DNA from: Marine Group I thaumarchaeote | Lineage (GTDB): Archaea; Thermoproteota; Nitrososphaeria; Nitrososphaerales; Nitrosopumilaceae | DNA: 44,907 nt | Direction: 5' to 3' | NCBI GenBank assembly: GCA_013390375.1 | Contig: JACATA010000008.1 | Span: 1-44,907, forward strand | Shown: one piece after another, positions 7,763 through 16,744 of the stretch | Position numbering within the stretch: the first letter of the stretch is position 1 | Layout: each line of letters opens with the position of its first letter | Made by a program: the position numbers and the translations under genes | Notes under the pieces: model-generated | Databases searched by the model: none | What the model saw: the letters and a program-made list of their open reading frames with translations, nothing else | Told to the model about the DNA's origin: nothing

Positions 7763-7930
7763 ATGAAATGCCCAGAATGTGATGCAGATCTAAATATCCC
7801 TGAAGATGCTGCTGTTGGTGAGATTGTTTCCTGTAGTGATTGCGGAGCTGACTATGAAATTTCAAAGAAAGATGGTCCTACAGTTGAAATCAAGGAAGCG
7901 GAAACAGTAGGCGAAGACTGGGGAGAATAA
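7763..7930 (+). CDS. lysW: Amino-group carrier protein LysW (copy 1, ends in Glu)
   Basis: This 55-residue acidic carrier protein has a zinc knuckle: CPEC near residue 3 and CSDCG near residue 27. It ends in EDWGE. In characterised LysW proteins the side-chain carboxyl of that last Glu is joined to the amino group of glutamate or aminoadipate by LysX/ArgX. The intermediates stay attached until LysK releases them. An in-frame GTG at 7751 overlaps the argG stop and is a possible alternative start. The stop is followed immediately by the TTG of the ligase gene, so carrier and ligase are made together. Confidence 0.92.
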   Translation: MKCPECDADLNIPEDAAVGEIVSCSDCGADYEISKKDGPTVEIKEAETVGEDWGE

Positions 7931-8788
7931 TTGTCAAAAATTTGCATAGTATTTGACCGGCTAAGAACAGAAGAAAAAATGCTTCAGAAAGAGGCAGCAG
8001 AACTTGGGCATGATACCTCTCTCATTGATGCTAAAACCACACAAATCAACACGTCTAGTCAAATACAAGATTTTGATTTTGGGGATATAGTCTTAGAACG
8101 CTGTGTTAGTTACTATAGGGGATTATACATTACTGCATGTCTAGAATTTTTAGATATTCCGGTAATCAACAAGTTTAACGTTTCTACCATTTGCGGTAAC
8201 AAGCTATTAACATCAATGCTGTTAAAAAAGAACAACATACCAACACCAAAGACATACTTTTCTTTTTCTGCTGATGCAGCACGAGAAAATCTTGATAGGG
8301 TTGGTTACCCATTGGTAATAAAACCAGTTATTGGAAGCTGGGGACGAAATGTCATACCGCTCAAAGATAAAGACACCGCAGATGCAATCATCGAACAAAG
8401 AGAAATTACTGATGGTCCTTTAGATAGAATTTTCTATCTTCAGGAGATGATAGACAGACCTCCAAGAGACATTAGAGTAATTACAATTGGAGATAAGGCA
8501 GTCACTGCAATGTATAGAAAATCTTCAGGCAATTTCAAGACAAATATTGCACTAGGTGCAGAGCCTGAAATTTGTGACATAACAAATGAGATGGAAGACT
8601 TGTGTGCAAAAGCCTCAAAGGCAGTTGGAGGAGGAATTCTTGGCGTTGACTTGATGGAAGATAAAGAAAAAGGGCTAGTTGTCCATGAAGTGAATAACAC
8701 TGTAGAGTTTAAGGGTCTAGTCAAAGTTGCAAACATAAACATCCCAAAAGAAATGATTGAGTTCGTACGAAACTCGATTAGAAAGTAA
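7931..8788 (+). CDS. argX: LysW-amino acid ligase (RimK-type ATP-grasp), probably ArgX
   Basis: The 285-residue ATP-grasp enzyme is of the LysX/ArgX type and should attach an amino-acid substrate to LysW. Family marks are LERCVSYYRG, VIKPVIGSWGR (ATP-binding core, about residue 135), RPPRDIRV, and VVHEVNNTVEFK near the end. The substrate loop reads FKTNIALGAEPE, whereas the second copy in this window and Thermus LysX have an NTxxGG form. Together with the neighbouring argG this suggests glutamate as substrate (ornithine/arginine branch). The assignment is inference; a bifunctional enzyme is the alternative. It starts with TTG directly after the LysW stop. Confidence 0.82.
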   Translation: MSKICIVFDRLRTEEKMLQKEAAELGHDTSLIDAKTTQINTSSQIQDFDFGDIVLERCVSYYRGLYITACLEFLDIPVINKFNVSTICGNKLLTSMLLKKNNIPTPKTYFSFSADAARENLDRVGYPLVIKPVIGSWGRNVIPLKDKDTADAIIEQREITDGPLDRIFYLQEMIDRPPRDIRVITIGDKAVTAMYRKSSGNFKTNIALGAEPEICDITNEMEDLCAKASKAVGGGILGVDLMEDKEKGLVVHEVNNTVEFKGLVKVANINIPKEMIEFVRNSIRK

Positions 8789-8832: not shown

Positions 8833-9885
8833 ATGAAAGTAGGAATAGTAGGTGCGTCTGGATATGTCGGCGGCGAAGTAGTCCGTCTACTGCTAAGTCA
8901 CCCTGAAGCTGAAGTTTCGATGGTGACGTCAACAAAACATGTTGGGGAGTATCTGCATAGAATACACCCGAGCCTAAAGGGCTTCACCAAACTAACATTT
9001 TCAGAACTTGATTATGACAAAATGTCAGACAAATGTGATTTGGTTTTCACGGCAGTGCCACATGGAACCGCAACCGACATTGTAAAGACATTTTATGATA
9101 GGGGAATGAAAATTATTGATCTTAGTGCAGATTACAGATTACACAACCCTGAAGACTATACAAAATGGTATGGTTGGGAACATCCACATCCTGATTACTT
9201 GTCAAAATCAGTATTTGGTATTCCAGAACTTCATAGGGACAAAATTAAAAATTCACAGTTAGTTTCTTGCCCTGGATGTATGGCAGTAACATCTACGCTT
9301 GCGTTATACCCACTGATCAAAAATGATCTCATTGACACGGAACACATAGTTGTTGACGCTAAAATTGGTTCGTCTGGCGCTGGTGCTGGAGGCACATCTG
9401 GCACACAACATGCAATGAGGGCTGGAGTTATTCGTCCTTACAAACCTGCAAAGCACCGTCATACGGGCGAAATCGAGCAGGAGCTTAGTGAAGTTGCTGG
9501 AAAAAAAATCAAGGTTTCAATGAGCCCACATGCAGTTGATATAGTTCGAGGAATTCTCTGTACGAATCATACATTCTTGAAAAAGGAAGTTAATGAAAAA
9601 GATATTTGGAAAATTTATCGCGCTGAATTTGGCGAGGAACCATTCATCAGGCTAATACGTGACAAAAATGGCTTGTATAAGTTCCCTGACCCAAAGTTTG
9701 TAGTTGGTTCAAACTTTTGTGATATTGGCTTCGAGCTTGATGAGGATAACAACCGATTGATTGCACTTTCTGCGTCTGACAACTTGATGAAGGGTGCAGC
9801 AGGATCTGCTGTTCAAAACATGAACATAATGTCAGGCTTTGATGAGAAGCAAGGAATTATGTATTCCCCATTGACACCGGTATAA
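8833..9885 (+). CDS. lysY: LysW-bound aminoadipyl/glutamyl phosphate reductase
   Basis: This 350-residue member of the ArgC/LysY family makes the semialdehyde of LysW-bound aminoadipate or glutamate using NADPH. It has the N-terminal dinucleotide fold GASGYVGGEVVRLL (residues 7-20), catalytic Cys in VSCPGCMAVTSTL (around residue 147), and GSSGAGAGGT afterwards. The length agrees with the family. A single copy is present, so it probably serves both the lysine and arginine branches. The next gene begins 3 bases after its stop. Confidence 0.93.
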   Translation: MKVGIVGASGYVGGEVVRLLLSHPEAEVSMVTSTKHVGEYLHRIHPSLKGFTKLTFSELDYDKMSDKCDLVFTAVPHGTATDIVKTFYDRGMKIIDLSADYRLHNPEDYTKWYGWEHPHPDYLSKSVFGIPELHRDKIKNSQLVSCPGCMAVTSTLALYPLIKNDLIDTEHIVVDAKIGSSGAGAGGTSGTQHAMRAGVIRPYKPAKHRHTGEIEQELSEVAGKKIKVSMSPHAVDIVRGILCTNHTFLKKEVNEKDIWKIYRAEFGEEPFIRLIRDKNGLYKFPDPKFVVGSNFCDIGFELDEDNNRLIALSASDNLMKGAAGSAVQNMNIMSGFDEKQGIMYSPLTPV

Positions 9886-9888
9886 CAA

Positions 9889-10692
9889 ATGATTACAATC
9901 AAAATTGGAGGGAGTGTAGTTGATGATTTACATCCCTCCGCTGTAGCAGACATAAAAAAAGTAATAGGGCAAGAGGAAGTAATTCTAGTTCATGGTGGAG
10001 GAAAGGAGGTTACCAAAGTAACGGAACAGCTAGGCAAGAAACCAAGGTTTGTTGTTTCCCCTGGCGGTGTAAAGAGCAGATATACCGACCTAGAAACTGC
10101 AGAAATTTTCACCATGGTTATGTCTGGAAGAATCAACAAGACAATTGTAAAGATGCTACAAAAAAACGGAATCAATGCGGTGGGTTTGTCTGGAATTGAT
10201 GGAAAAATAATTCAGGCTGACAGAAAGAAAAAACTCATAATTATGAATGAAAAAGGGCGAAAACAAGTAATTGATGGAGGATATACAGGTAAAATTACGC
10301 AAATTAATGCATCTCTGATAAAATCTATTCTTGAACTAGGTTACACTCCAGTCATTTCTCCAATAGCAATTAGTGAGGAATCTGATTTTCTCAATGTGGA
10401 TGGCGATAGAGCGGCTGCTAATATTGCAGGACAAGTAAAGACTGACAAGGTTTTATTTCTGACAAATGTTGACGGGTTGTTAATAGATGAAAAATTAGTT
10501 GATACTTTAACGCTAGCAAAAGCAAAAGAAATTTTGCCACAAATTGGATTTGGCATGGAAAAAAAGATACTTGCTGCGACTGAAGCGCTTGAGATGGGAG
10601 TAACGGAAGCAATAATTGCAAATGGTCAAAGGGAAAACCCCATATCTTCTGCAATTGCACATAATCATTGCACGGTAATCAAAAATGAGTGA
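9889..10692 (+). CDS. lysZ: LysW-bound aminoadipate/glutamate kinase
   Basis: The 267-residue amino-acid kinase is of the ArgB/LysZ type. It has KIGGSVVDD at the N-terminus, VLVHGGGKEVT (about residue 33) and FLNVDGDRAAANIA (about residue 165). It phosphorylates the distal carboxyl of the carrier-bound substrate before LysY reduction. Its 3' end overlaps lysJ by 8 bases, indicating translational coupling. Confidence 0.93.
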   Translation: MITIKIGGSVVDDLHPSAVADIKKVIGQEEVILVHGGGKEVTKVTEQLGKKPRFVVSPGGVKSRYTDLETAEIFTMVMSGRINKTIVKMLQKNGINAVGLSGIDGKIIQADRKKKLIIMNEKGRKQVIDGGYTGKITQINASLIKSILELGYTPVISPIAISEESDFLNVDGDRAAANIAGQVKTDKVLFLTNVDGLLIDEKLVDTLTLAKAKEILPQIGFGMEKKILAATEALEMGVTEAIIANGQRENPISSAIAHNHCTVIKNE

Positions 10693-11860
10693 AGATCAAT
10701 ATTTAGGAAATCTTTACCAGAGGTTTCCTGTAACCATAGAAAAAGGACTAGGTTCGCATGTATGGGATACTGACAACAACGATTACATTGATTGTATGGG
10801 CGGATACGGTGTTGCACTGGTTGGACATAGAAACGAGCGTGTTGTAAATGCAATTAAATCTCAAATTGACAAAGTAATTACCGTTCACAGCTCTTACTAC
10901 AATAAGACTAGGGAAGAGTTTTTGCAAGCTTTGATTGCTGTTGCACCACCAGGACTTTCCCAAGTTCATCTAAACAATAGTGGGTCTGAATCTATAGAAG
11001 CTGCTATAAAATTTGCAAGAAAGTTTACGGGTAAAAAGAAAATGGTTGCAATGAAAGGATCTTATCATGGAAAATCTATGGGAGCTTTATCTCTAACTTT
11101 TAATCCAAAATACAGGGAACCATTCCAGCCTCTTGTTGAGAAGGTATTATTTTCACCATATGGAGATATAGATGGACTACGAACTGTTGTTGATAAGGAT
11201 ACGGCATTTGTAATCTTAGAACCTATTCAAGGAGAAAGTGGAATTCATGTTCCCCCTGAAGGGTTTTTACAAGATGTTAGAAAGCTATGTGATGAAAATG
11301 ATAGCCTCCTTGTATTTGACGAAATTCAATCGGGATTGGGTAGAACTGGAAGAATGTGGGCATCAGAACACTGGAAAACAATTCCGGATATAATGTGCCT
11401 TGCCAAGGGAATTGCTGGGGGAGTTCCCATGGGTGTTACGTTAGTAAGACCAGATATACTATCTGTGATGAAAAAAGGAGAACATTCGTCAACATTTGGA
11501 GGAAACCCTTTGGCATGCGCTGCGGGAACTGCTACACTTCATGCACTAACACAAGATGGTTTAATTGACAATGCAAAAAATATGGGACAAAAACTTCTCA
11601 ATGGATTAGAAGATCTCAAATCTAAGCATAAAATAATTAGAGAAGTTAGAGGTAAGGGATTAATGATTGGTGCAGAATTAAAATTTGAAGTAAAAGATAT
11701 CTTAATGGAAGGAATCAAAAAGGGATTATTACTCTTATACTCAGGTAGAAACATCTTAAGATTTCTTCCTCCGCTGGTTATTTCCGAGGAAGATATTGTA
11801 AAGACACTACAAATACTAGATGAGCTACTTACAAATGAGGAGAATAGAAGAAATGCATAA
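10685..11860 (+). CDS. lysJ: LysW-bound semialdehyde aminotransferase
   Basis: The 391-residue class III PLP aminotransferase belongs to the acetylornithine/LysJ group. Visible features are LNNSGSESIEAAIKFAR, SYHGKSMGALSLT, FDEIQSGLGRTG (Asp that contacts PLP) and MCLAKGIAGGVPMG with the Schiff-base Lys near residue 245. It converts the LysW-bound semialdehyde to the bound lysine or ornithine. It overlaps lysZ upstream and the Lrp-type gene downstream. Confidence 0.93.
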   Translation: MSEDQYLGNLYQRFPVTIEKGLGSHVWDTDNNDYIDCMGGYGVALVGHRNERVVNAIKSQIDKVITVHSSYYNKTREEFLQALIAVAPPGLSQVHLNNSGSESIEAAIKFARKFTGKKKMVAMKGSYHGKSMGALSLTFNPKYREPFQPLVEKVLFSPYGDIDGLRTVVDKDTAFVILEPIQGESGIHVPPEGFLQDVRKLCDENDSLLVFDEIQSGLGRTGRMWASEHWKTIPDIMCLAKGIAGGVPMGVTLVRPDILSVMKKGEHSSTFGGNPLACAAGTATLHALTQDGLIDNAKNMGQKLLNGLEDLKSKHKIIREVRGKGLMIGAELKFEVKDILMEGIKKGLLLLYSGRNILRFLPPLVISEEDIVKTLQILDELLTNEENRRNA

Positions 11861-12384: not shown

Positions 12385-13575
12385 ATGAATGATCCGAATT
12401 ACTATGCAGAGGAATATAACTCAATTGGTAAGGAGTCTAAGAAAATAAGAATACTAGATTCTACACTAAGAGAGGGTGAGCAACATCCAGGTGTCTCATT
12501 TACTGTTAAACAAAGAATTCAGATTGCTTGGGAGCTTGATTACTTTGGGGTTGATCAGATTGAAATATCTCCAATTATTTCTAGTGATCACGCTCAAGCA
12601 ACTAAGACAATTATCAAGCAGGGATTAAAAGCAGACATTGTAGCACATGGAAGGGCGCTAAAAGAGGATATTGATGTTTCATTAAAGTGTGATGCGTCTT
12701 GGGTTGCTGCATATCTTGGTATATCTGACATTCATCTCAAAGACAAGCTTCGAATTTCAAGAAATGAAGCGTTAGACAGAGCAGTGCAAACTGTAGAATA
12801 TGCAAAATCACATGGGTTGAAAATTAGGTTTACTGTTGAAGATGGAAGTAGGGCGGACCCGCAATTTCTGATCAATGTATGTAAGGCAATAGAAGATGCG
12901 GGTGTGGATAGGATCAGTCTTACTGATACCGTGGGAATTTTAAGACCTATAGGAATGTATAATTTCGTTAAGAGAGTTCGTTCTGAAATCAAGACTCCGC
13001 TTGATGCACATGTTCATAATGATATTGGCTTTGCACTAGCAAATGCTTTTGCTGCATGTGATGCTGGCGTTGACCAAATCCATACAACAATTGATGGTAT
13101 TGGAGAAAGGACTGGAATACCATCTCTCGCTGAGACTGCTGTTGCACTTACCTATTTGTACAAATCAGAAAATGATTTCAGATTAGATATGCTGGTTGAT
13201 CTTTCAAGGCTTATTGAACAATACACAAACATTAGACCTTACGATTCAAAACCGATTGTTGGCTCTTCAGCCTACAAGCATAAAGCTGGTACACATCTTG
13301 CCGCAGTTTTGAAAAATACCGCTGCATATGAACCGATTCATCCAAGAAGCGTAGGAAACAGACGAAGAATTGTATTTGGTGAATTAGCTGGTAAGACTGG
13401 TGCGGCATATCTAATGTCAATCTTAGGCTTGGAAAAAAATACTAATAACGCAAAAAATCTTGCGGCAGGTTTGAAAAATCTTAGAATGGGTGATCTGCTT
13501 GAAATTCCACTTGAAGATGAAATGGAAAGAAAGATAATTAATGATGAAAAAAGAAGGATGGATAGAAATGACTAA
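12385..13575 (+). CDS. lysS: Homocitrate synthase (LeuA/NifV-family)
   Basis: The 396-residue acyl-CoA-condensing aldolase has DSTLREGEQHPG near residue 25 (catalytic Arg and metal-binding Asp) and metal-binding HVHND around residue 211. GIGERTGIPSL follows, as in homocitrate and isopropylmalate synthases. Placement directly before lysW2-lysX-lysK argues for homocitrate, the first product of the aminoadipate route, rather than 2-isopropylmalate or citramalate. The 3' end overlaps lysW2 by 8 bases. The first 20 residues are an extension before the barrel. Confidence 0.83.
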   Translation: MNDPNYYAEEYNSIGKESKKIRILDSTLREGEQHPGVSFTVKQRIQIAWELDYFGVDQIEISPIISSDHAQATKTIIKQGLKADIVAHGRALKEDIDVSLKCDASWVAAYLGISDIHLKDKLRISRNEALDRAVQTVEYAKSHGLKIRFTVEDGSRADPQFLINVCKAIEDAGVDRISLTDTVGILRPIGMYNFVKRVRSEIKTPLDAHVHNDIGFALANAFAACDAGVDQIHTTIDGIGERTGIPSLAETAVALTYLYKSENDFRLDMLVDLSRLIEQYTNIRPYDSKPIVGSSAYKHKAGTHLAAVLKNTAAYEPIHPRSVGNRRRIVFGELAGKTGAAYLMSILGLEKNTNNAKNLAAGLKNLRMGDLLEIPLEDEMERKIINDEKRRMDRND

Positions 13576-13735
13576 TTGCCCTGAATGTGATGCAGAAATA
13601 ACCATCCCTGAGGATGCAGTTGATGATGAGATTGTAACCTGTGCTGAATGTGGAGCGAGCTTCGAACTGGCTAAGATTTCTGATGGATTTGAGCTAAAAC
13701 CGGCCCAAACTGTTGGAGAGGACTGGGGGCAGTGA
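13568..13735 (+). CDS. lysW: Amino-group carrier protein LysW (copy 2, ends in Gln)
   Basis: This 55-residue LysW paralogue has zinc ligands CPEC and CAEC and an acidic body. It ends EDWGQ: the codon is CAG at 13730-13732, followed by TGA. In known LysW proteins the last residue is Glu, whose side chain is the attachment point, so the chemistry for this copy is unclear. The ATG at 13568 overlaps the end of homocitrate synthase; an upstream in-frame start would add residues absent from copy 1. The stop overlaps the GTG start of the ligase gene. A Glu codon GAG would have allowed the same overlap, so the overlap does not force Gln. Confidence 0.9.
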   Translation: MTNCPECDAEITIPEDAVDDEIVTCAECGASFELAKISDGFELKPAQTVGEDWGQ

Positions 13736-14580
13736 CCGATAAAATCACAGTTCTTTATGATACAATCCGTCTAGAAGAAAAACTGTTAATCAAAGCCGCA
13801 GAAAGGCATGATATCCACATTGAGATGGTTGATTGTAAACAACTGTTTGTAGATTTGAACAAAAATACACATGAATTTGAGACTGTTTTGCAGCGTTGCG
13901 TCAGCTATTATCGGAATATCCACTCAACAGCAACTTTAGAGGGTCTTGGTGCCAGGGTAATCAACTGTCTAAACACTGGACTTCTTGCTGGAAACAAACT
14001 GTTCACACATATGTTGCTGCAGAAGGCGGGAATTCCTACACCTGAAGCTACAATAGCATTTTCGAAGGAGGCTGCTATGCAATCACTTGAAAAAAGTGGA
14101 TATCCGAAGATCATCAAACCAACTGTTGGTAGCTGGGGTAGAATGGTATCAAAACTAAATGACAGGGATTCAGCTGAAGGCGTTATTGAATCAAGAGAAT
14201 CAATGCATCCAACGTATCAAATGTACTTCTTAGAGGAGTTTGTACAAAGACCACCAAGGGATATACGTGCCATAGTGATAGGCGACAATGTTGCAGGTGC
14301 AATTTACAGAGTTTCTGATAATACCAATTGGAAAACAAATACGCACTTGGGTGGATCAGCTGAAGCATGCGAAGTTACAAATGAGCTAGAAGATATTTGT
14401 ATAAAAGCTAAAAATACGGTTCAAGGAGAAATTGTAGGTGTTGATCTAATGGAAAGCAACGACAAGGGATTAGTTGTCCATGAGATTAATAATACTACCG
14501 AGTTTCGAAACGTTGTGAAAGTAACAGGCGTTGACATTCCGACACAGATGCTAGACTATTTAAAAAATTCAAGTAAGTAA
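13732..14580 (+). CDS. lysX: LysW-aminoadipate ligase LysX (RimK-type ATP-grasp)
   Basis: The 282-residue ATP-grasp ligase is paralogous to the gene at 7931. It has LQRCVSYYRN, IIKPTVGSWGR (about residue 126), RPPRDIRAI and VVHEINNTTEFR near the end. Its substrate loop WKTNTHLGGSAE keeps the NTxxGG form of Thermus LysX, and it follows homocitrate synthase, so aminoadipate is the likely substrate. It starts with GTG inside the LysW2 stop region. Divergence from the first copy is large throughout, so this is an old duplication rather than a recent one. Confidence 0.86.
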   Translation: MTDKITVLYDTIRLEEKLLIKAAERHDIHIEMVDCKQLFVDLNKNTHEFETVLQRCVSYYRNIHSTATLEGLGARVINCLNTGLLAGNKLFTHMLLQKAGIPTPEATIAFSKEAAMQSLEKSGYPKIIKPTVGSWGRMVSKLNDRDSAEGVIESRESMHPTYQMYFLEEFVQRPPRDIRAIVIGDNVAGAIYRVSDNTNWKTNTHLGGSAEACEVTNELEDICIKAKNTVQGEIVGVDLMESNDKGLVVHEINNTTEFRNVVKVTGVDIPTQMLDYLKNSSK

Positions 14581-14582
14581 AA

Positions 14583-15707
14583 ATGGAACAACACTTCACA
14601 GTTACAACAAGATTCGCAGTAAAGACATTAGAGAAAGCGTTGAAGCTTTACACGCCATCGTTACGTGAAAAAAGCCTAGCTGACTTTCTTGCTGACAAAT
14701 GTGATGATTTAGGTTTCAGGGATATACATACAGATGATGTGGGAAATATTATTGCTACAAAAGGTTCTGGTTCACCTAAAATTCTTTTATGTGGACATAT
14801 GGATACAGTACCCGGAAGAATTAGGGTGAGAAAAGAAGGCGATTATCTTTTTGGAAGGGGTTCGTCAGATGCGAAGGGTCCACTTATTGCAATGTTGTTT
14901 GCTGCCGCAAGTGCACAAGAAAAAACTGGTACAGTAATATTTGTAGGTACGGTAGATGAGGAAGGAAATGCTACTGGAATTAAGAGTTTGACTAAGGACA
15001 AACCTGATGTAGAATATGCAATTTTTGGTGAGCCCAGTGGAACAAATCAAATTACCATTGGATACAAAGGACGTATTGCTATCAATCTAAAAATTAACGT
15101 TGAGAATAGTGCACATGCTAGTGCACCTTGGCTGGCAAAAAATGCAATTCATGAATCATCATTATTTGTCAATGAAATTAAGAATGTTTTAGAATCTGGA
15201 CAGGAAAACAAAAAGAAAGGCATGATGCTGACTGCCACTTTAACAGAAATAAAAGGTGGCCTAAGTCATAATGTTACACCTAGAGAGTGTGATTCAACAT
15301 TGGATATTAGAATCCCAGTTGGCATTAGTTGCAAATCTGTTGAAGAAAAAATTTCCAAAGCAGTACAGGAAATTTCTAAAAAGCAACAGGTAGAGGCGTT
15401 TTATTCCATCATAGATGAAACTGAACCTTTTGAGGCAGAACACAATTCTCCCCTTGTAAGGGCTCTCACTCTGGGAATTTTAGACATAGAGAAGAATAGA
15501 CCTACGTTGATTAGAAAAACGGGTACGGGCGACATGAATGTTATAGGCAACAGTTTAAGCATTCCAGTTGTAACTTATGGTCCAGGTGATCCTCATGCTG
15601 CACATACAATTGATGAAAAAATCTCCATTGATGAATACCTTCGAGGAATAGAGGTTCTGAAAAGAACCATACAGCATTTAAAACGACTGCATGATAAAAT
15701 CAAGTAA
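14583..15707 (+). CDS. lysK: LysW-lysine/LysW-ornithine hydrolase
   Basis: This 374-residue M20-family metallopeptidase releases lysine (and probably ornithine) from LysW. Metal-site motifs are LLCGHMDTVPGR (about residue 70) and FGRGSSDAKGPL (about residue 98). FVGTVDEEGNATGI holds the catalytic Glu, and GDPHAAHTIDE with its metal-binding His lies near the end. The length is normal. It begins 2 bases after the lysX stop, and its TAA shares a base with the next ATG (TAATG). Only one copy is seen, serving both branches. Confidence 0.9.
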   Translation: MEQHFTVTTRFAVKTLEKALKLYTPSLREKSLADFLADKCDDLGFRDIHTDDVGNIIATKGSGSPKILLCGHMDTVPGRIRVRKEGDYLFGRGSSDAKGPLIAMLFAAASAQEKTGTVIFVGTVDEEGNATGIKSLTKDKPDVEYAIFGEPSGTNQITIGYKGRIAINLKINVENSAHASAPWLAKNAIHESSLFVNEIKNVLESGQENKKKGMMLTATLTEIKGGLSHNVTPRECDSTLDIRIPVGISCKSVEEKISKAVQEISKKQQVEAFYSIIDETEPFEAEHNSPLVRALTLGILDIEKNRPTLIRKTGTGDMNVIGNSLSIPVVTYGPGDPHAAHTIDEKISIDEYLRGIEVLKRTIQHLKRLHDKIK

Positions 15708-16744
15708 TGCTGTGGTTTGTAGGACTAGGTATATCTGGCACTAGATCAATTCCAATTGAAGTTGTAAAAATCATTCAGGAAGCAGATTTTGTATATCTAG
15801 AAGCATTCACAAGTCCAATTTCCAAGCAACATGAAGACGAAATTAAAAACATGGTTAATGGAAGTTTCAAAATTGCAAAAAGATGGTTGGTGGAAGATGG
15901 TCAAGAGATCCTCAAGACGTCAAAAAGTTCTACTGTTGTCCTATTATCATATGGAGATCCATACGTGGCAACAACACACATAGAACTTAGAACTAGAGCA
16001 AAATTAGAAAATATTGAAACAAGCACGATTCATTCCGCTTCAGCAATAACATCAATGACAGGTGAAGCTGGATTACAATTCTACAAAGTTGGGAGAATGG
16101 TAACTATAATGAATGAAAAAAAGTCTACAATAACTCCTTACACTGCTATTTTCAAGAATTTAACACAGGGTCTTCATTCTATAATATTATTAGAATACAA
16201 TCATGACGAAAACTATTTTCTTGACCCAAAGGATGCAATTTCAAACCTACTGGATGTTGAAAAAGAACAAAAAAGAAATGTTGTAAATAATGATACGTTT
16301 GCGATAGTTGCCTCAAGAATTGGGTTCAAAACACAAAAAATTACCTCTGGAAAATTCAGTAATCTGCTTAAAGTTGATTTTGGGGAGCCGCCACATAGTA
16401 TAATCATTACAGGAAAATTACATTTTACAGAATCAGATGCAATAAACGTGCTGACAGAATGTTTAGACAAACCATCAGATAATTCAAGTAGAATTAAGAG
16501 TACTTCAATCCAGATGATTGAAAAATATGTTCCAATGGTTAGGGATACACTGGAAGAGATTAAGTCGCTGTACAATGACTCAAAAGAATTTCAAGTGGTC
16601 ATTCAAAATGCAGAACTCTACATTAACGACGCAGAAAATTTCCTAAAGCAGGGAAAGGATGAGAATGCAGTTTTGAGTATTGGTTATGCAGACGGTCTGG
16701 TAGATGCGTTAAGAATTGCAAAGGGTATAGACCCAAAAATATAA
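15707..16744 (+). CDS. dphB: Diphthine synthase fused to a C-terminal DUF357 domain
   Basis: Residues 1 to about 265 are the tetrapyrrole-methylase-fold diphthine synthase (MLWFVGLGISGTRSIP start, VVLLSYGDPYVATTH, HSASAITSMTGEAGLQFY). This enzyme methylates the diphthamide precursor on elongation factor 2 using SAM. The last 80 or so residues look like DUF357, a small helical archaeal domain (EKYVPMVRDTLEEI...AELYINDAENFLKQG...ADGLVDALRIAKG). Stand-alone diphthine synthases are about 265 residues, so the 345-residue product is a fusion. It is last in the homocitrate synthase-lysK operon. Confidence 0.85.
   Translation: MLWFVGLGISGTRSIPIEVVKIIQEADFVYLEAFTSPISKQHEDEIKNMVNGSFKIAKRWLVEDGQEILKTSKSSTVVLLSYGDPYVATTHIELRTRAKLENIETSTIHSASAITSMTGEAGLQFYKVGRMVTIMNEKKSTITPYTAIFKNLTQGLHSIILLEYNHDENYFLDPKDAISNLLDVEKEQKRNVVNNDTFAIVASRIGFKTQKITSGKFSNLLKVDFGEPPHSIIITGKLHFTESDAINVLTECLDKPSDNSSRIKSTSIQMIEKYVPMVRDTLEEIKSLYNDSKEFQVVIQNAELYINDAENFLKQGKDENAVLSIGYADGLVDALRIAKGIDPKI

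Follow-up and report, generated by a model that had tools for sequence, protein, structure and literature searches.

How can a LysW carrier protein, which bears amino acids during the synthesis of lysine and arginine, be loaded if its gene ends in a codon for Gln, a residue without a side-chain carboxyl? To our knowledge, the side-chain carboxyl of the last Glu is used in every characterised LysW/ArgW member. The question arises in the window analysed here, a 44,907-nucleotide stretch of DNA from a Marine Group I thaumarchaeote, in which two LysW genes lie in one cluster and only the first ends in Glu. The first-pass annotation of this DNA had offered four readings of the second: prior deamidation, use of the main-chain carboxyl, a changed LysX chemistry, or a LysW2 that accepts no substrate and regulates LysX.

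A cluster with two LysW carriers

The gene order is argG, lysW1, lysX1, lysY, lysZ, lysJ, an Lrp-type regulator, a homocitrate/isopropylmalate-synthase-like gene, lysW2, lysX2, lysK and dph5; the lys genes and the synthase-like gene are all on the forward strand. LysW1, the argG-linked carrier (7763..7930; sequence reading and profile search), ends in EDWGE and is followed by LysX1 (7931..8788), an ArgX-type ligase with an EFKG signature and GSWGR (TIGR02144, 307.4 bits; alignment). Downstream are the LysY/ArgC reductase (8833..9885; TIGR01850, 427.1 bits), the LysZ/ArgB kinase (9889..10692; NF010662, [LysW]-aminoadipate/[LysW]-glutamate kinase, 297.7 bits, cut-off 194), the LysJ/ArgD aminotransferase (10685..11860; TIGR00707, 424 bits, cut-off 410) and, beyond lysX2, LysK (14583..15707; TIGR01902, 279.6 bits, cut-off 163.1; Peptidase_M20), the M20 hydrolase that cleaves the finished product off its carrier and a candidate deamidase of the Gln tail. 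The dph5 gene (diphthine synthase, window 15707-16744) adjoins the 3' side of lysK in families f1 and f11 (loci L108-L165) and was not found beside lysK in the clusters of f10 or f13.

LysW2 (13568..13735; MTNCPECDAEITIPEDAVDDEIVTCAECGASFELAKISDGFELKPAQTVGEDWGQ, 55 aa, read from the ATG at 13568) shares 56% identity with LysW1 and matches NF041070 carrier_LysW_Arch (82.2 bits, cut-off 75) and PF21344 (46.8 bits, cut-off 27). Its zinc-binding cysteines C4, C7, C25 and C28, arranged as two CxxC pairs, are all conserved, and its C-terminus is EDWGQ, so that at the level of the gene the substrate-bearing terminal Glu of EDWGE is replaced. Re-reading confirmed this difference between the carriers, which the first-pass annotation had noted: the terminal codon is CAG (13730..13732), kept in genus-mates, followed by the stop TGA (13733-13735), and it is not a sequencing artefact. 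The degenerate pattern GARGAYTGGGG has two sites in the window, at the lysW1 and lysW2 tails only, against 0.05 expected by chance.

The G that closes the CAG codon (13732) also opens the GTG start of lysX2, and the start and the lysW2 stop share four bases (GTGA); what had been described as a LysW2 fused to LysX is thus two separate, overlapping genes. LysX2 (13732..14580) is a LysX-type ligase with an EFRN signature (TIGR02144, 321.7 bits, cut-off 275.6; alignment to 3VPB/3VPD chains). Like LysX1 it carries GSWGR, which is reported to recognise EDWGE (PMC10433800); the ligase next to the Gln-tailed carrier thus has the motif described for the Glu tail. At the specificity site, where an Asn-Thr versus Gly-Phe swap has been described (PMC10433800), LysX2 is Asn-type (EFRN) and LysX1 Gly-type (EFKG), and by sequence the former fits aminoadipate and the latter glutamate.

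The synthase-like gene (12385..13575), directly 5' of lysW2 with an 8-base overlap, has HMGL-like and HCS_D2 domains. It falls below the cut-off of every specific NCBIfam synthase model, the best being a 2-isopropylmalate synthase subfamily (411.9 bits, cut-off 517), and both the name homocitrate synthase and the substrate that it implies are putative.

Conservation of the Gln tail

In the genus of the window, every one of the 24 readable LysW2 copies from genus-mates ends in Gln, and the LysW1 copies have a Glu tail; across the family, VGEDWGQ occurs in 73/74 sampled members. A scan of named genomes for the tail pattern found at least 119 stretches. Among the matches listed, 116 are LysW tails, 108 of which passed a strict scripted test, the other eight being truncated, either where the stretch stops or at the edge set by the script; the remaining three (L225, L238 and L290) proved on inspection to be chance DNA-pattern matches. 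Named genera among the matches listed include Nitrosopumilus, Nitrosopelagicus, Nitrosarchaeum, Nitrosotenuis, Nitrosotalea, Cenarchaeum, Nitrososphaera, Nitrosocosmicus, Nitrosopolaris and Nitrosocaldus.

Many of the genomes compared are metagenome assemblies, and the Glu/Gln pattern also holds in single-contig genomes; together with the conservation of the residue, this rules out a sequencing or assembly error as the source of the Gln codon. The overlap with lysX2 does not force CAG either, since the GTGA overlap is kept equally well by GAG (G149, G295, g45, g49) and Gln tails also occur without it (CAATAA, CAGTAG). The first-pass view that decay of LysW2 is unlikely holds.

Glu and Gln have been exchanged on either carrier

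The Gln tail is not peculiar to the second carrier: across ammonia-oxidising Nitrososphaerota, either LysW, or both, can be affected. The family of the window has Glu on LysW1 and Gln on LysW2 (E/Q), with exceptions in two of three g16 genomes, in which both carriers end in Gln, and in three g12 genomes (G149, G295 and G210), in which LysW2, assigned there by sequence context and not by neighbouring genes, ends in Glu. In f11, genera g42, g43, g46 and g47 are Q/Q and g45 and g49 are Q/E; genus g50 is E/Q. Family f10 contains both E/Q (g40) and E/E (g41), family f13 is E/E, and other families of the class have a Glu tail in every match listed. The suggestion that the copy linked to homocitrate synthase always ends in Gln therefore fails in G149, G295, G210, g45 and g49, and Gln as a mark of the second carrier is too narrow a description, since LysW1 has a Gln tail in several further genera.

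Tail changes were counted on a tree built by a quick method from six neighbouring proteins (LysW itself is too short for its own gene tree); at least two are needed for LysW1 and four for LysW2. The cases in g16, g12 and g117 lie outside this tree and add one switch each, giving at least about nine in total if the argG-adjacent and LysX2-adjacent positions hold the same genes throughout. The paralogue residues before the tail (AE versus PAQ) agree with the LysW1/LysW2 assignment in the clusters read; the count could be smaller if gene conversion has swapped tails between the two genes. No last residue other than Glu or Gln was seen, judging by the near-equal numbers of genes found by the profile and by the Glu/Gln pattern. 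The persistent E/Q arrangement in the family of the window suggests that the two residues are not fully interchangeable.

Among the families tested, amoA is present in f1, f10, f11 and f13 only (no genome among fourteen controls was positive), so that within the class Gln tails are restricted to ammonia oxidisers. A strict link between the two was rejected. The gene amoA also occurs in the Glu-only g41, f13, G052 and G210, and G461 (genus g117), the single case found outside ammonia oxidisers, has a genuine LysW with a Gln tail, followed by LysX, without amoA; its genus-mate G426 has a Glu-tailed LysW. In family f20 (L158, L159), LysX lacks GSWGR, yet LysW ends in EDWGE.

Genomes with a single, Gln-tailed LysW

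In genus g44, taken as Nitrosocosmicus from the identical tail sequence in named Nitrosocosmicus loci, each genome yielded a single full-length LysW in the profile search, and it ends in Gln; three single-contig genomes (G301, G302 and G303) are included. The four g44 clusters read have kept both LysX1 (ArgX-type) and LysX2 (LysX-type) and lack LysW1. ArgJ, of the acetylated route, was absent from 19/19 genomes tested, with 10/14 controls positive, and arginine synthesis in g44 thus most likely depends on the Gln-tailed LysW. For lysine, a second route (DAP) may exist in f11, in which a LysA-like protein is present below the curated cut-off. With two LysX kept and the only detectable LysW ending in Gln, a Gln tail in g44 cannot be the sign of a carrier that is defunct or serves regulation alone.

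A single LysW with a Gln tail was also found in three genomes of g51. The g51 clusters (L137, and L322 of G340) contain LysX2 only, with LysX1 and LysW1 missing there; the remaining ligase may be bifunctional, or a gene may have moved elsewhere. In g2 and g16 the carriers are rearranged (L321 of G052; L110 of G031; L112, L114 and L116 of g16): the sole LysW of G052 is argG-linked and Glu-tailed, and in G031 and g16 the second LysW sits apart from argG and LysX1. One g16 contig (L246) is labelled Cenarchaeum.

Partner enzymes do not follow the tail

GSWGR was found in all LysX read from the order, and within either LysX paralogue no alignment column separates enzymes paired with Gln tails from those paired with Glu tails. 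His93 of LysX2 is common to all copies of the Gln lineages and is also present in f13 (Glu) and in Glu-tailed f11 copies; it therefore follows descent. A changed LysX chemistry, one of the four initial readings, thus finds no support. The columns of LysY, LysZ, LysJ and LysK show weak, lineage-like differences only; in LysK, which is also present in lineages with Glu tails on all carriers, no residue cleanly tracks the Gln lineages, with only weak candidates such as C40. Every complete cluster read has one LysY/Z/J/K set for both carriers, second copies being judged within the cluster and two gene models in L126 being split.

Alternative explanations

The chief rival to deamidation is that, in these archaea, LysX attaches the amino acid through the main-chain (alpha) carboxyl of the terminal residue, which would make Glu and Gln equivalent. 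RimK, the S6:glutamate ligase, acts in this way on ribosomal protein S6, and LysX belongs to its family (TIGR00768, 298.6 bits); such loading would account both for the interchange of the two residues and for the constancy of LysX. However, LysX, for all its shared superfamily, is known to act on the side chain, and in the systems tested the substrate is bound by the C-terminal Glu, in Thermus through its gamma-carboxyl (PMC10433800). A side chain left free would also be predicted to vary, but Glu and Gln alone are seen, and a single LysZ/Y/J/K set handles carriers with either tail. We consider main-chain loading rather unlikely. The same absence of a third residue, despite other single-base changes being available, weighs against neutral drift at a position that no longer matters in these lineages; the many independent switches would be expected under drift, but EDWG is otherwise nearly invariant and Gln is stable in nearly all sampled members of the family of the window, and we give this explanation very little credence.

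A non-acceptor, Gln-tailed LysW2 that binds and regulates LysX2 while LysW1 carries both pathways would suit the family of the window, in which Glu is kept on LysW1 and Gln on LysW2. This reading, also among the initial four, is contradicted by the sole Gln-tailed carrier of g44, by the genera in which both carriers end in Gln (g42, g43, g46, g47) and by the reversed roles in g45 and g49, and it appears quite improbable. The amino acid might instead replace the Gln amide directly, with no free Glu intermediate; transamidation of this kind would likewise yield a normal gamma-linked carrier, in keeping with the shared downstream enzymes. ATP-grasp ligases, however, activate carboxylates rather than amides, so that a separate enzyme would be needed, and LysX is unchanged where the tail is Gln; we judge direct replacement very unlikely.

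Proposed deamidation before loading

We favour, with some confidence, the reading that LysW2 is a working carrier that is translated in an amidated, inactive form and loaded once its Gln has been deamidated to Glu, with LysK as the proposed deamidase. Among the four initial readings, prior deamidation is best supported, by the repeated Glu/Gln exchange, the sole Gln carriers and the unchanged LysX. Both loading and the deamidation that would precede it are inferred from this comparative pattern. As both carriers share one LysZ/Y/J/K set, and LysX shows no change that goes with the tail, the loaded carriers are probably chemically identical, and hydrolysis of Gln to Glu before loading is the simplest way to make them so. 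The side-chain amide of the terminal Gln would be hydrolysed post-translationally, LysX2 with ATP would activate the resulting gamma-carboxyl and attach aminoadipate there, after which the common LysZ, LysY, LysJ and LysK would process the loaded LysW2 just as they do the Glu-tailed LysW1.

The identity of the deamidase is the least certain step. LysK is proposed as the candidate because it cleaves the same gamma-amide: hydrolysis of the Gln amide to acid and ammonia is the type of reaction by which LysK releases lysine or ornithine. A precedent is offered by Pup, a ubiquitin-like tag of some bacteria, whose C-terminus is Gln or Glu depending on the lineage and whose deamidation is 'chemically equivalent to depupylation', with one enzyme for both (PMC8223512; PMC7947786). 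In actinobacteria, Dop deamidates Pup-Gln and also removes Pup from its targets; by analogy, LysK comes first among the candidates. Pup resembles LysW as a small carrier that is joined via the gamma-carboxyl of its last residue, by a bond that the deamidating enzyme also reverses; for LysW the deamidation is inferred only. The two systems are not homologous: on the LysW side the carrier is a zinc ribbon, the ligase is of the ATP-grasp type and LysK is an M20 metallohydrolase, and in profile searches LysW2 and LysX2 matched other families than Pup and Dop/PafA (glutamine-synthetase fold).

The LysW/ArgW carriers of Thermus, Sulfolobus, Thermococcus and Natrinema resemble LysW2 in size, zinc-ribbon cysteines, EDWG tail, adjacent GSWGR-bearing LysX and downstream enzymes, and differ in their terminal Glu, which is also found in each of the three LysW chains of known structure (3VPB, 3WWL, 5K2M). 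A literature search at title and abstract level, covering few subscription journals, found no mention of LysW tail deamidation in what it reached, which speaks only weakly for novelty.

The LysW family is taken to be defined by its linking Glu, and Gln replaces this residue in most of the ammonia-oxidising archaea sampled, among them genomes with a single carrier. This natural replacement implies either a maturation step that has gone unrecognised or another kind of linkage, in organisms that have a central place in the global nitrogen cycle. More tentatively, LysW in ammonia-oxidising archaea may be masked by its Gln and unmasked by LysK, in which case the same isopeptidase would start and end the lysine/arginine cycle. 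This would be a Dop-like double role, evolved independently in an unrelated metallohydrolase, and might be a point at which the cycle is controlled in step with ammonia. If true, LysW deamidation would be an independent parallel to the deamidation of Pup.
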